NCBI GenBank assembly: GCA_005883575.1
Contig: VBFH01000027.1
Span: 1 to 64,000, forward strand
From: Chloroflexota bacterium
Lineage (GTDB): Bacteria; Chloroflexota; Dormibacteria; Dormibacterales; Dormibacteraceae
Length of the DNA stretch: 64,000 bases
Direction: 5' to 3'
Shown here piece by piece: positions 19,214-27,390 of this stretch (its first letter is position 1; the number at the start of each line of letters is the position of its first letter). Both the position numbers and the translations under genes were made by a program. The notes below the pieces were generated by a model that worked only from the letters and a program-made list of their open reading frames with translations, made no database searches and was not told the DNA's origin.

Positions 19214-19585
19214 ATGAAAAGACCAGTCGTGATGATCGTCGGCGCTGCAGCGGGAGCCCTTCTGGTCGCCGGGGTAGGCGCTTCCGCTCACACCGCGATC
19301 AACCTGGCGACGAGCGTGGGGACGCGTTCGGACTTGTTCGGCGACGAGGCCACAGCTGCACGTGTCCAGTCGCCAGAGCCAGAGGCAAGCCCAGAGGCCA
19401 CGCCGACGGCCGAGCCGGCTGAACGCCCGGAACCCGCGGCGACGGCTGAGCCGGCCGAGAACGAGCCTGCTGAGAACGAGAACGACAATGACAACGACGA
19501 CAACGATGCGGTCGAGCACGCCGGCTCAGGCAACCACGACGACGGTGGCGACAACGGCGGTGGCGGTGGGGGCGGCGACGACTAG
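19214..19585 (+). CDS. Exported low-complexity acidic protein, 123 aa
   Basis: The third gene of the sigma factor unit. It has an N-terminal signal or anchor (MKRPVVMIVGAAAGALLVAG). A stretch rich in Pro, Glu and Ala repeats follows, then an Asp/Asn-rich run and a Gly/Asp-rich end. No globular domain is visible. The composition suggests a surface or cell-envelope protein that could bind cations. The 3' end overlaps the convergent formate dehydrogenase gene by 4 bp. Confidence 0.65.
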   Translation: MKRPVVMIVGAAAGALLVAGVGASAHTAINLATSVGTRSDLFGDEATAARVQSPEPEASPEATPTAEPAERPEPAATAEPAENEPAENENDNDNDDNDAVEHAGSGNHDDGGDNGGGGGGGDD

Positions 19586-20457
19586 CGCTTAGCTTCCCGG
19601 CGCTGCACGAACTCAAAACCGAATCGCCCCTTGACGCACAGGTGACCCGAGGTCACGCTGTGATCAAGGGGCGACGTCACTTTTACGATCGAGTTGTCCT
19701 GGACATGCAGCTCGAGCATGCAGCCCACGCCGCAGTAGGGGCACACGGTTTCCGTCACTTTCTGACGAGACTCATCCCACGTGCCGGCGGCGCGCATTTC
19801 GTGCTCGCTCTTGAACATCAACGCTCCAGTCGGGCACACGCCGATGCAGTTGCCACAGTAGACGCAGGCCGAATCTGGAAGCGGCGTATCGAACTCGGTC
19901 GAGATATGCGCGTCGAAGCCTCGACCCACGACCCCGATGGCAAAGGTGTTCTGCGCGTCAACGCCACAAGCTTCCACGCACTTGTAGCAGAGGATGCAGC
20001 GCGAGTAGTCGCGCACGTAGAGGTCATTGTCGATCTTTACCGGCTGTGCCGCGGTCGCGACCTGATCGCCGAAGCGCGACGGTGTTGCGCCATATCGACC
20101 CATCCATGCATGGACCTGGGGCGAGCAGAGCGACATGTCGACCGACGACGCAAGCAGCTCGAGGACGAGACGGCGGCTGTGCCGGACACGATCGGAGTCG
20201 GTCTGGACCTTCATCCCGGCTTCGACCTTGCGCGAGCACGCGGGGACGAGGACGCGCGATCCCTCGACCTCGACCACGCAGACCCTGCACACGTTGACAG
20301 GCGTCAGGTTGTCCAGCTGGCACAGGGTTGGTGTGTCGATCTGCATCCGGCGGCACGCGTCGAGGATGGTCGAACCTTCGGCGACCTCGAATTCGCGGCC
20401 GTCGATCGTCAGCTTGACTAGGCGTCGTGGCAGGCCGACGAAAACCGCCTCAGACAT
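19582..20457 (-). CDS. Split formate dehydrogenase iron-sulfur subunit (N-terminal domains of FdhA), 291 aa
   Basis: In order it carries a [2Fe-2S] plant-type ferredoxin domain (CQLDNLTPVNVCRVCVVE, with a fourth Cys in VPACSRKV) and two [4Fe-4S] sites (CILCYKCVEACGV and CVYCGNCIGVCPTGA). It ends with the CPYCGVGC plus GHLCVKGR motif, the [4Fe-4S] domain that normally begins the molybdopterin catalytic part of FdhA. The protein stops shortly after it, so the domain that usually continues into the Mo-binding region is severed here. The NADH-dehydrogenase-type His/Cys cluster is not conserved. The ATG at 20457 overlaps the stop of the flavoprotein gene by 8 bp. Electrons should pass from the catalytic subunit through this protein to the NAD-binding subunit. 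Confidence 0.85.
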   Translation of the reverse strand: MSEAVFVGLPRRLVKLTIDGREFEVAEGSTILDACRRMQIDTPTLCQLDNLTPVNVCRVCVVEVEGSRVLVPACSRKVEAGMKVQTDSDRVRHSRRLVLELLASSVDMSLCSPQVHAWMGRYGATPSRFGDQVATAAQPVKIDNDLYVRDYSRCILCYKCVEACGVDAQNTFAIGVVGRGFDAHISTEFDTPLPDSACVYCGNCIGVCPTGALMFKSEHEMRAAGTWDESRQKVTETVCPYCGVGCMLELHVQDNSIVKVTSPLDHSVTSGHLCVKGRFGFEFVQRREAKR

Positions 20458-22228
20458 TGAGCACCTTCAGCTGCGTCAGGCCTGACGCGATCGCATTGGC
20501 CGCCGTCTGGCCGAGACCGCAGATCGACGCATCTCGCATCGCCTGTGCGATGTCGCTCAGCAGCAGAACATCGGAGCGACCGTCGCCGTCGCGTCCACCC
20601 AACATCCGCTCGAGGATCTCCTCCTGGCGCTTGGTGCCGACGCGGCAAGGCACGCATTGGCCGCACGATTCGTCGCGGAAGAAGCGGGCGATGCGAAGCA
20701 GAACCTGCTTCATGTCCGCGGTGTCGTCGAAGACGAGGACCGCACCGGAGCCGAGCGTAGCACCGATGGCGCGCGTCCCCTCGAAGCTCAGCGGGACGTC
20801 GATCTGGTCCGGAGTGAGAAAGGATCCGGCCGCCCCACCAAGAAGGACCGCCTGGACTTTGCGCGCCCCGGCCGTGTCGAGCAGCGCGCGCAGAGGAGTC
20901 CCCATCGCGACTTCGTAGATCCCCGGGCGCGTGACATGTCCCGACGCGCAGAAAAGGCGCGTCCCCGTGGAGTCCTTTGTCCCTGTCGCCGCGAATGACG
21001 CGCCTCCTTCGACAACGATGTCGACCACGTTCAGAAGCGTCTCGACGTTGTTGACCAGCGTCGGCTTGCCGAAGAGGCCCACATCGACCGGAAAAGGCGG
21101 CTTGTTGCGCGGCTCTCCCCTCTTCCCTTCGATCGAGTTGAAGAGAGCCGTTTCCTCGCCGCAGATGTAAGCGCCCGCCCCGCGCCGCACCTCGATCTCC
21201 AACTTGAGGATTCCTTGCGCGCGGGCCTGGGCAATGGCGTTCTCGATCCGCCTTCGCGCGAGCGGATACTCGGTGCGGACGTAGAGGAACCCCTTCTCGC
21301 AGCCGGTCGCAAGCGCGGCGATGGCCATCCCTTCGACGATCGCGAAGGGATCGTTCTCCATCAAGACGCGATCCTTGAACGTGCCCGGCTCCGACTCGTC
21401 GGCGTTGCACACGAGGTAGTGGGGACGGGCCGCCGCCTTCGCCACCGACTCCCACTTGCGGCCGGTTGGAAACGCGGCTCCGCCCCTGCCCAGCAGTCGG
21501 GATTCGGTGATCTCGCGGATGACCGCATCCGATCCGATCACCTCAGCGCGACCAAGGGCGGTGAAGCCGCCATGCAGGCGGTAGCTTTCGAGGCTCTCGG
21601 GGTCGACCGCGCCGATCCGGCGCAGCAGCTTCGGCTGGGCCTGCCGAGGCATCGAGTACGTCGCCGGCTCGGGCCAGGCGCCTCCGCCGAGGATCGACTC
21701 CGCCTGTGCCAGCGTGAACGGCGCGATCTGTCGGTCTTTGTGCTGCATGCCGGCTCGCTCGACAAGCGCCGCGGGCGCGCGGTCGCACAGGCCGAGACAG
21801 GGGCTGCGGTGCCACACCACCCCCGACGGCCCATGTGCGTTTTCGAGTGCCGCGCACAGCTCTTCCGCACCGGAGCATTTGCAAGCGATGTCGTCACAAA
21901 CGTGAAGCGACAGAGCGCCGCGCGGCTGGAGCCCGAAGCGGGCGTAGAAGCTGACCACTCCGTACGCCTCGGCCGGCGGGATGGACAGCCGCCTGCACGC
22001 ATACTCGAGCGCGCCGCGGCTCACCCAGCCGGAGCGGTCCTGGATCGCGTGGAGCACGGGCAGAAGAAGGTGGCGCCGCGACCGCGTCGCGCGCCCGCCA
22101 TACGCGAGGTGGTCGTCAGACGCGCGCCGCTCGCCCCCCTCCCAAAGCGACTCCGGCTCGCCAAGCAGACCGTCGACCGCCGCCATCTCCTCGGCGGTCG
22201 CGGGCCCCCCTGTGGTGCGTATGTCCAA
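20450..22228 (-). CDS. NuoE-NuoF fusion, NAD-binding flavoprotein subunit of formate dehydrogenase, 592 aa
   Basis: The N-terminal 170 residues are a NuoE-like thioredoxin-fold [2Fe-2S] domain with the cysteines in HVCDDIACKCSG and CLGLCDRAP. The rest is NuoF-like: GRGGAAFPTGRKW binds NADH, YLVCNADESEPGTFKDR and GAGAYICGEETAL bind FMN, and ESCGQCVPCRVGT plus a later Cys bind a [4Fe-4S] cluster. It reduces NAD(P)+ with electrons from formate. The TTG start at 22228 follows the catalytic subunit stop directly with no spacer, and its stop overlaps the iron-sulfur subunit gene. Confidence 0.9.
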   Translation of the reverse strand: MDIRTTGGPATAEEMAAVDGLLGEPESLWEGGERRASDDHLAYGGRATRSRRHLLLPVLHAIQDRSGWVSRGALEYACRRLSIPPAEAYGVVSFYARFGLQPRGALSLHVCDDIACKCSGAEELCAALENAHGPSGVVWHRSPCLGLCDRAPAALVERAGMQHKDRQIAPFTLAQAESILGGGAWPEPATYSMPRQAQPKLLRRIGAVDPESLESYRLHGGFTALGRAEVIGSDAVIREITESRLLGRGGAAFPTGRKWESVAKAAARPHYLVCNADESEPGTFKDRVLMENDPFAIVEGMAIAALATGCEKGFLYVRTEYPLARRRIENAIAQARAQGILKLEIEVRRGAGAYICGEETALFNSIEGKRGEPRNKPPFPVDVGLFGKPTLVNNVETLLNVVDIVVEGGASFAATGTKDSTGTRLFCASGHVTRPGIYEVAMGTPLRALLDTAGARKVQAVLLGGAAGSFLTPDQIDVPLSFEGTRAIGATLGSGAVLVFDDTADMKQVLLRIARFFRDESCGQCVPCRVGTKRQEEILERMLGGRDGDGRSDVLLLSDIAQAMRDASICGLGQTAANAIASGLTQLKVLNV

Positions 22229-24139
22229 CTAAGAGGCGGGGACCTGAGCGGGGATCTTGTCAATCCGGATCGCGCTTGCCTTGAACTCGGCCGTGCCGGA
22301 CTTTGGGTCCGTGGCGTCAATGGTCAGGATGTTTGTCGAGACCTGGTCGGGAAAGTGAAGCGTCATGAACGCGAGACCAGGTCGCAGGGTGGGCTCGATT
22401 CGCACGTTCACATCCACGGAGCCGCGGCGCGAGCTGACGCGGACGCACTCGCCGTCCTCCACACCGATGCGCTGACCATCCTCGGGGGAGATGAGCAGCG
22501 CCTCGCCCTTGCGGAGCGGCGACGTGTACTCGTTGGTCTGAACACCCGTGTTGAAGGAGTCGAGCCTGCGACCGGTGGTCAGTCGGATCGGAAACTCTTC
22601 GCTCAGGCGATCGACAGGCGGATCGTGCTCCACGGCGTGGAACGGAGCGCGGGGGCCCTCGACGGGATGCTTCCAGAGCCGAGCGTGCAGGAACTGCGTG
22701 CCCCGATGCGATTCGTCCGGACAGGGCCACTGGATCCCACCGAGCTCCTCGAGCCGGCGATACGCCATACCCGCATGCATCGGGGACAGGCTGCGGCACT
22801 CATCCCAGACTTGCTCGGCGGTCGGATGGCCCCAGTCTGAGCCGAGACGGCGAGCGAGTTCGCAGATGATGTCGATGTCGTCCCTCGCGCCCGCGGGCGG
22901 CTCGAGCGCGCGACGGACGCGCTGGACGCGCCGCTCGCTGTTGGTCACCGTGCCTTCCGACTCCGCCCAACCGGCAGCCGCCGGCAGCACGACGTGCGCC
23001 ATCTGCGCGGTGTGGGTGAGGAAGATGTCCTGCACCACCAGGTGATCGAGGCCGCTCAAAAGACGGACAGCGCGACCCTGGTCCGCCTCGCTGCGCGCCG
23101 GGTTCTCGCCGACGATGTAGAGCGAGCTGAGGTCGCCGCGATCCATCGCCTCGAACATCTCGCTCAGATGCCACCCCTTCCTGCCTGGAAAGGTCGCGCC
23201 ACCCCAGGCGCGCGCGAACTTGTCGTGGATCTCCGGGTCTTCGAGGTCTTGGAAACCGGGCAGGCGCGCCGGAATCGCGCCCATGTCGCCGCCGCCCTGG
23301 ACGTTGTTCTGCCCGCGCAGCGGATTGAGCCCGCTCCCATACCTGCCGACTTTGCCGGTGAGCAGACCCAGGTTGATCAGCGCGAGCACGTTGTCGGTTG
23401 CGTTGTGGTGCTCGGTGATGCCTAGCGTCCAGCAGATCATTCCCTTCTCGGCCCGCGCATACGCGAGCGCGACCTCTTTGATCGCCGCGGCCGGCACGCC
23501 GGTCTCCGCCTCGGCACGTTCGAGCGTGTACGCCTCGACGCAGCGCGCGAACTCCTCGTAACCGGTGGTCGCCCGCGAGATGAACTCCGTGTGCGCAAGC
23601 CCGGCGTGGATGATCTCGCGCGCCATCGCGTTGGCGAGCGCGATGTCGCTCCCCACATCGATGCCGAGCCATATGTCGGCCCACTCGGCCGAGCTTGTGC
23701 GCCGGGGATCGACCGCGATGAGCTTCGCTCCGCCGCGCACCCCGCGCAGGAGGTGGTGGAAGAAGATCGGGTGAGTCTCCCGCGCGTTGGAGCCCCACAA
23801 GATGATCAGGTCCGTTTCCTCAGCCTCCTGGTAGGAAGACGTCCCTCCCCCGGCTCCGAACACTGTCGCCAGACCGGCGACGCTCGGCGCGTGTCAAGTC
23901 CGGTTGCAGCTGTCGATGTTGTTGCTGTGCATGACCGCACGAGTGAACTTCTGCGCCATGAAGTTCATCTCGTTGGTCGTCTTCGAGCAGCTGAACATGC
24001 CGAATGCATGCGGTCCTTGCCGGCGGGCCGCCTCGAATCCCGCGGCGGCCCTCGTCAGGGCCTCTTCCCAGGACGCGGGGCGCAGGTCTCCGCCCTCCCT
24101 GACCAGCGGCTCGGACAGACGGCGAAGCCCGTCGTGCAT
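22229..24139 (-). CDS. fdhA: Selenocysteine-containing formate dehydrogenase catalytic subunit (molybdopterin oxidoreductase), 636 aa with Sec82
   Basis: The frame runs from the ATG at 24139 through an in-frame TGA at 23894-23896 to a TAG at 22229. The TGA lies in DSCNRT-Sec-HAPSVAGL, the position of the active-site selenocysteine followed by His in formate dehydrogenases, so it should be read as Sec at codon 82. A hairpin with a GGUCU loop follows. Further motifs are WGSNARETHP, NPLRGQNNVQGGGDMG, and a C-terminal dinucleotide-binding domain with FPIRLTTGRRL and SSRRGSVDV. The usual N-terminal [4Fe-4S] domain is missing and is encoded by the separate gene at 19582-20457. The enzyme oxidises formate to CO2 or the reverse, and requires a selenocysteine system elsewhere in the genome. 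Confidence 0.9.
23865..23881 (-). promoter_or_regulatory. Bacterial SECIS hairpin after the Sec codon
   Basis: In the mRNA sense, GTCGCC, the loop GGTCT, and GGCGAC form a perfect 6 bp stem starting 12 bases after the UGA. The GGUCU apical loop is known to be required for SelB binding in Escherichia coli fdhF, and the 18-base distance from UGA to loop also fits. Flanking CCGA/TCGG can extend the stem. Confidence 0.85.
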
Positions 24140-26136: not shown

Positions 26137-26271
26137 CTACGCCATTCTCGCGCTGCTTTGGGGCCCGGGTTTGCCCGGCGGCGACGTCAACCGAAAACTC
26201 CTATTGCCATCCGCTCGAAACGAGAGTATTCAGGTCCTCATCCCAGAGTCCGGCTGTATCGAGGTGGGGAC
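26137..26271 (+). other. 135 bp upstream of the repeat protein gene
   Basis: This spacer between two divergently read genes holds two small perfect hairpins: CCGGG-TTTG-CCCGG at 26165-26178 and CTCG-AAA-CGAG at 26214-26224. GAGGTGGGG at 26261-26269 is a probable ribosome site for the ATG at 26272. I see no convincing -35/-10 pair. Confidence 0.4.
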
Positions 26272-27369
26272 ATGCATCAATTGCGACTACGGGCAGTCGG
26301 CGTTGCGGCAGGGCTCGCTTTGTCTGCTGGAGCGTTGTTCTTTGGCCAGGCACAAGCAGTTGCCTCTAGCTGGTCCGTTGTTTCCAGCCCCAACAGCGGG
26401 ACGAGCAACAATTACCTCTCCGGAATCGCCTGCGTCTCGTCCAGCTTCTGCATCGCGGTGGGTGCGTACGACTACGGGGCCCTGATCGAGTCCTGGAACG
26501 GCACCAGTTGGTCGATCGTGCCAGCGCCCGACAGCGGCATCAGCGGCCTCAGTAGCGTCGCCTGTCCCTCGTCCAGCTTCTGCACCGCCGTGGGTGGGAT
26601 TGACAACAGCGGCATCGGCCAGACCCTGATCGAGTCCTAGGATGGCACCGGCTGGTCTATCGCGCCCAGCCCCAACACGCTAGGCAACGATTACCTCGAT
26701 AGCGTTTCTTGCGCCTCGTCCAGCTTCTGCACCGCCGTGGGTTCTGTAAACAATGGCGCCCAGACCCTGATCGAGACGTGGAACGGCACCAGCTGGTCGA
26801 TCGTTCCCAGCCCCAATCGCGGAACGAGCCCCGACTTTCTCCATGGTGTGGCCTGTGTCTCGTCCAGCTCCTGTACCGCCGTAGGTGGGTACCACAACGG
26901 CGTTGTCTCCCAAACCCTGATTGAGTCCTGGAACGGCACCAGCTGGTCGATCGTGGCCAGCCCCAACAGGGGACTGGGCGACAACAACCTCTTTGGCGCG
27001 TCCTGCCTCTTGCCCAAGACCTGCACAGCTGTGGGCATTGGAACGGGGCAGACCTTGATCGAGTCCCTGAACGGCAGCCGATGGTCGATCGCGCCCAGCC
27101 CCAGCAGCGGGACGAGCTACAACTCGCTCTATGGCGTGGCTTGCCCCTCGTTCAAGTCTTGCACCGCCGTGGGCGGTGTTGGGAATGGAACGCAGTTCCT
27201 GATCGAGTCTGGAAAACACAACAGATGGTCGATCGAGTCCACCCCAAACACTGGCAACTACAACGCGCTCACCAGCGTAGCCTGCGTCTCATCCGGCTCC
27301 TGCACCGCCGTGGGCTATTACGTCAACAGCAGCAGCGGCGTCTTCCAGACCCTGATCGTGTCTGAGTGA
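26272..27369 (+). pseudogene. Exported seven-repeat protein interrupted by an in-frame amber codon
   Basis: The ATG at 26272 starts a signal peptide (hydrophobic core GVAAGLALSAGALFF, cleavage near AQA-VASS). Seven repeats of about 45-50 residues follow, each with the pattern SWSIVPSPN, GVACVSSSSCTAVG and QTLIESWNGT. A TAG at 26638-26640 (codon 123) stands exactly where the repeat has Trp (IES-stop-DGT versus IESWNGT), and the frame is then open to a TGA at 27367-27369. This looks like one TGG to TAG mutation in an otherwise intact gene of 365 codons. Each repeat has a conserved pair of cysteines. The function is unknown; similar repeats are common in secreted actinobacterial and chloroflexal proteins of unknown role. 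Confidence 0.75.
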
Positions 27370-27390
27370 GGCCGGCGAGAGAGCACGGCC
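27370..27390. terminator. Hairpin between convergent genes
   Basis: GGCCG at 27370-27374 pairs with CGGCC at 27386-27390 across an 11-nt loop, in the 22 bp between two convergent genes. There is no T run, so terminator function is only suggested by position. Confidence 0.3.

Follow-up and report, generated by a model that had tools for sequence, protein, structure and literature searches.

A predicted selenocysteine-containing formate dehydrogenase with a divided alpha subunit in a soil bacterium of Ca. Dormibacterota

On the sequence evidence, the in-frame UGA of the fdhA gene described here is almost certainly decoded as selenocysteine (Sec), and the product, FdhA, would serve as catalytic subunit in FdhABC, a soluble Mo/W formate dehydrogenase linked to NAD+. 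The host is a soil bacterium of Ca. Dormibacterota, represented by a draft genome (95.5% complete, 2.9% contamination). Sec in formate dehydrogenase is a textbook case of UGA recoding; the mechanism is well known, and its occurrence here changes no concept. The observations that carry the reading, each taken directly from the DNA, are the frame, a hairpin and its covariation, the Sec machinery, domain content and gene order. The feature lies on the minus strand of the window, by which we mean the whole 64-kb stretch analysed (Table 1); the original prediction had given no strand.

Table 1. Features of the fdhABC locus, in window coordinates.
Feature	Position	Strand	Evidence
fdhA, predicted Sec-containing formate dehydrogenase catalytic (bis-MGD) subunit	22229..24139	minus	frame, TIGR01591, PDB FdhF/FDH-H homologues
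In-frame UGA, predicted Sec codon at Mo/W-ligand position	23894..23896	minus	frame; TGA in 80 of the best 80 homologous loci
Predicted bacterial SECIS hairpin, lower and upper stem	23853..23890	minus	fold; covariation
Upper stem-loop GUCGCC-GGUCU-GGCGAC; loop 23871-23875	23865..23881	minus	conservation, covariation
fdhB, NuoE-NuoF fusion (diaphorase, FMN/NAD and Fe-S)	20450..22228	minus	Pfam 2Fe-2S_thioredx, Complex1_51K, SLBB, NADH_4Fe-4S
fdhC, HoxU/NuoG-like ferredoxin subunit with FDH [4Fe-4S] domain at its end	19582..20457	minus	domain profiles
Molybdop_Fe4S4 domain (CxxCxxxC...CVK) of fdhC	19603..19761	minus	PF04879 E=1.5e-19; TIGR01591 positions 1-52

Translated with TGA as an amino acid, the fdhA frame begins at an ATG at 24139, ends at 22229 and gives 636 residues. 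Its sole internal stop is the TGA at 23894-23896, which corresponds to Sec82 and, as originally proposed, interrupts one continuous frame at the active-site position. The surrounding residues read ...NIDSCNRT-U-HAPSVAGLATVFG, with the motif CNRT-U-HAPSVAGL, and the U/C-H-x-P motif that supplies the Sec or Cys metal ligand is present as UHAP. FdhA matches TIGR01591 (formate dehydrogenase alpha) on both sides of the TGA (positions 52-672, 646 bits) and also matches the Pfam families Molybdopterin and Molydop_binding. Annotation had been expected to split the gene in two, and plain ORF calling without recoding does so, into pieces of 81 and 544 residues; the expectation does not hold in every case, because FdhA3 of Actinomycetospora chiangmaiensis appears at 640 aa under a RefSeq accession in the passages of PMC7176365 that list it.

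A GGUCU loop of 5 nt starts exactly 18 nt after the TGA, at the distance first proposed, on a continuous upper stem of 6 bp (GUCGCC/GGCGAC) in which 23881-23876 pairs with 23870-23865; the lower stem beneath it is partly paired. These properties agree with the bacterial SECIS consensus of PMC13188914 in apical loop size (3-9 nt; here 5), upper stem length (4-16 bp; here 6), G in the first two loop positions (here GGUCU), UGA-to-loop distance (16-37 nt; here 18) and minimum free energy (-7.5 kcal/mol or lower; here -22.1). The energy comes from the folding check that the original prediction had recommended: a 42-nt hairpin folds at -22.1 kcal/mol with z = -2.70, and 1 of 200 shuffles is equally good. 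The z value ranges from -0.3 to -2.7 with the stretch chosen and is modest unless the stretch is trimmed, so that folding energy alone is weak evidence. Of all TGAs in the window, that of fdhA alone has GGTCT 16-20 nt downstream on a stem of 6 bp or longer; 60 Markov-simulated windows yielded no such arrangement. Rfam model SECIS_3 aligns at the correct place in fdhA with an insignificant score (12.7 bits against a cut-off of 63); RF00031 has no matches in the host genome and none in any control genome, and is thus uninformative.

The comparison originally drawn with E. coli fdhF also stands, the reference sequence of its UGA and GGUCU hairpin being present in 5,368 of the 5,426 E. coli genomes searched. 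Loop sequence and 18-nt spacing are identical in the two genes, whereas the upper stem of E. coli contains an unpaired U. The E. coli protein (FdhF, FDH-H) has Sec at the Mo ligand and the motif UHxPSVAGL in common with host FdhA; unlike host FdhA, it is a single chain that includes the [4Fe-4S] domain, and it belongs to formate hydrogenlyase.

The codon and the hairpin were also compared across homologues. The set consisted of the best 80 homologous loci in public genomes, drawn from Dormibacterota/'Chloroflexi' MAGs, Acidobacteria, Actinomycetota, Planctomycetota, Gemmatimonadetes, Rokubacteria and others; because most are MAGs, some of these phylum labels may be wrong. TGA occupies the Sec codon in all 80 loci, and the hairpins align without gaps. 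Over 75 sequences, 99.6% of the cells for the six upper-stem pairs are paired, and three pairs are changed on both sides; on either measure the real alignment exceeds all 500 shuffles and all slid registers. The lower stem is conserved less well, with 79% of cells paired. At hairpin columns 18:30 and 21:27 both partners fall on third codon positions, and the only pairs present are C-G and the swapped G-C; protein constraint does not explain these swaps. The loop reads GGTCT in 72 of the 74 distinct homologous sequences, and its glycine codon is GGT in 78 of the 80 loci, as against 10.8% of the other 4,071 downstream glycine codons in the same genes.

Two Rokubacteria homologues (L051:3846-3893 and L074:6238-6285) keep the TGA and the stem and have a GGGCU loop rather than GGUCU. 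The SelB proteins of their hosts would need to accept that loop.

The original prediction had named cysteine-containing homologues without the hairpin as contrary evidence. None occurs among the best 80 loci, which all retain both TGA and hairpin, and Cys at the Sec position is confined to homologues of about 44% identity or less. In 301 genomes of the phylum, homologues fall by identity into two groups: those at about 60% or more always have TGA where the site is covered, and those at about 45% or less mostly lack it. In 12 loci that were fetched, GGTCT stands at the same spacing in 8 of 8 with TGA and is absent in 4 of 4 with TGC or TGT. Homologues in plasmid records were all below 60% identity. 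These data bear directly on a rival reading in which translation really stops at the TGA, or a Cys codon was missequenced, and fdhA is a pseudogene or an artefact. The assembly is a draft and TGA lies one base from both TGC and TGT; against this, 80 independent loci belonging to many phyla share the TGA and the hairpin, the fdhA frame has no other interruption, and conservation of loop and stem extends to synonymous positions. Because homologues keep the TGA and the hairpin, we rejected the pseudogene and sequencing-error readings, to which we assign next to no probability.

Decoding of the UGA as Sec presupposes a Sec pathway, and the original prediction had supposed that the organism makes Sec. 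A search of the same genome recovered all four components of a Sec-utilising organism: tRNA-Sec (anticodon UCA, 71.4 bits against a cut-off of 47, with a 6-bp D stem and a 9-bp variable arm), adjacent selA and selB genes, and selD (337 bits). Absence of SelB or tRNA-Sec, the other finding named beforehand as contrary evidence, is therefore not the case. The SelB protein has winged-helix domains, which in E. coli bind the SECIS. The genome also encodes FdhD, which is needed for formate dehydrogenase maturation in E. coli. In principle, UGA might be read as Trp or another residue through an altered genetic code or by a suppressor tRNA, and UGA reassignment is known in some bacteria. Such reassignment would be expected to leave in-frame UGAs elsewhere, but there are none in the neighbouring conserved operon genes; moreover, the codon falls at the Sec/Cys metal-ligand position with a conserved SECIS loop after it, and the genome holds tRNA-Sec and the full Sec pathway. 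The chance that this explanation is correct seems to us negligible, and Sec is the preferred reading.

The host selD gene has an in-frame TGA of its own, at its usual Sec position, residue 18 (GAG-U-ACK; L019:1429-2433, minus strand, contig C86), and SelD itself is predicted to be a selenoprotein. The hairpin after the selD TGA is weak, being no better than shuffles.

Among 101 relatives, selA is present in 35 of 39 genomes with fdhA and in 42 of 62 without it (odds ratio 4.2, p = 0.015), a co-occurrence that is only supportive because the test ignores relatedness; the four exceptions are draft genomes. Since selA is found in 77 of the 101 relatives and fdhA in only 39, many such soil bacteria probably retain the Sec pathway for the sake of other selenoproteins.

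The organization of the operon reveals a second property, which was absent from the original prediction: the alpha subunit is split at the boundary of its Fe-S domain. The FdhA chain lacks the [4Fe-4S] domain, which FdhC carries instead. By itself FdhA scores 646.1 bits, over TIGR01591 positions 52-672, against the curated cut-off of 666.25, while positions 1-52 of the model match FdhC with 56.7 bits, and the two proteins together exceed the cut-off. The end of FdhC (CPYCGVGC...CVKG) corresponds to the 52 model positions missing from the FdhA N-terminus. The three genes abut or overlap by 8 nt and for this reason probably form one transcript, and fdhB and fdhC are the second and third genes in those related loci that extend far enough. 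Among 79 homologous loci whose frame is bounded, none has a CxxCxxxC motif upstream of the Sec codon, and the [4Fe-4S] motif of fdhC is present in 59 of the 60 loci with a complete third gene, the exception (L044) having a frame break at that point. Because FdhA without the domain and fdhC with the motif recur across related loci, the split is conserved and is not an assembly fault.

In the fetched homologues at about 40-45% identity, by comparison, the [4Fe-4S] domain is contiguous with the catalytic part. Contiguous NAD-linked alpha subunits, such as FdsA (6tg9) and homologues of about 900 aa in the same phylum, have the same domains and partners at about 37-45% identity. In this FdsA type, a NuoG-like N-terminus is fused to the MGD domains in one polypeptide, and the ligand is Sec or Cys; in the host type the chain is divided between two polypeptides, the MGD part coming first, NuoEF second and the ferredoxin part last, and all members seen have Sec. 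We think it likely that the host type represents a discrete formate dehydrogenase clade spanning multiple phyla, in which alpha is divided between its [4Fe-4S] and MGD parts, a downstream ferredoxin gene ends with the cluster domain, and all members seen use Sec as metal ligand.

Also among the closest known systems is FDH3 of A. chiangmaiensis DSM 45062, which the relevant passages of PMC7176365 describe as a cytoplasmic NAD+-dependent Sec formate dehydrogenase detected by proteomics, with a SECIS assigned by bSECISearch; formate removal in this strain is stated there to need selenium. Its subunits FdhA3, FdhB3 and FdhC3 (640, 614 and 316 aa) match host FdhABC (636, 592 and 291) closely in size, the comparison covering sizes and annotation, and the organism belongs to a different phylum. 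Those same passages do not mention a divided alpha subunit. A literature search likewise found no paper naming a split formate dehydrogenase alpha, although such absence is weak evidence and FDH3 fits by size; nor did it find one on Dormibacterota together with selenocysteine or formate dehydrogenase. PMC13188914 describes FdhA as the selenoprotein family with the widest distribution in bacteria.

From the protein families involved we infer how decoding, subunit assembly and electron transfer might proceed, and likewise the direction of the reaction. SelA would make Sec-tRNA(Sec) using selenophosphate from SelD, and SelB carrying Sec-tRNA(Sec) would bind the GGUCU hairpin 18 nt downstream, allowing Sec to be inserted at the ribosome. 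Formate would be oxidised at the Sec-ligated bis-MGD centre of FdhA; electrons would then pass to the [4Fe-4S] cluster on a separate protein, FdhC, from there to the ferredoxin clusters of FdhC, and finally to the FMN/NAD site on FdhB, where NAD+ would be reduced. It is conceivable, though improbable, that CO2 reduction is the main function of the operon, or that NAD+ is not the acceptor it uses. Metal-dependent formate dehydrogenases are reversible, and the PDB sequence closest to FdhA is FdhF of a hydrogen-dependent CO2 reductase (7qv7). The neighbours of fdhA, however, encode a NuoE/NuoF diaphorase and a HoxU-like ferredoxin, the operon has no hydrogenase or F420 subunit, and the passages of PMC7176365 that deal with FDH3, which has the same size, give it the role of oxidising formate with NAD+. 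NAD+-linked oxidation of formate is the favoured role for FdhABC.

Elsewhere in the window, positions 26158-27372 of the plus strand encode a repeat-rich protein with repeats of SWNGTSWSIV...CTAVGG and an in-frame TAG at 26638-26640. Frame and repeats continue for more than 200 codons beyond the TAG, and this is probably a decaying gene or a sequence error.

Finally, we note that with the fdhA locus a well-known mechanism gains a phylum of uncultured soil bacteria, together with a comparative set of SECIS sequences that is very clean. The conserved split of the alpha subunit is the more useful point, because double misannotation is easy, once at the UGA and again at the Fe-S domain. If the split is as we describe, electrons leaving the metal centre would cross a subunit interface to reach the proximal cluster, and the role of the metal-to-cluster contact would become testable across that interface.
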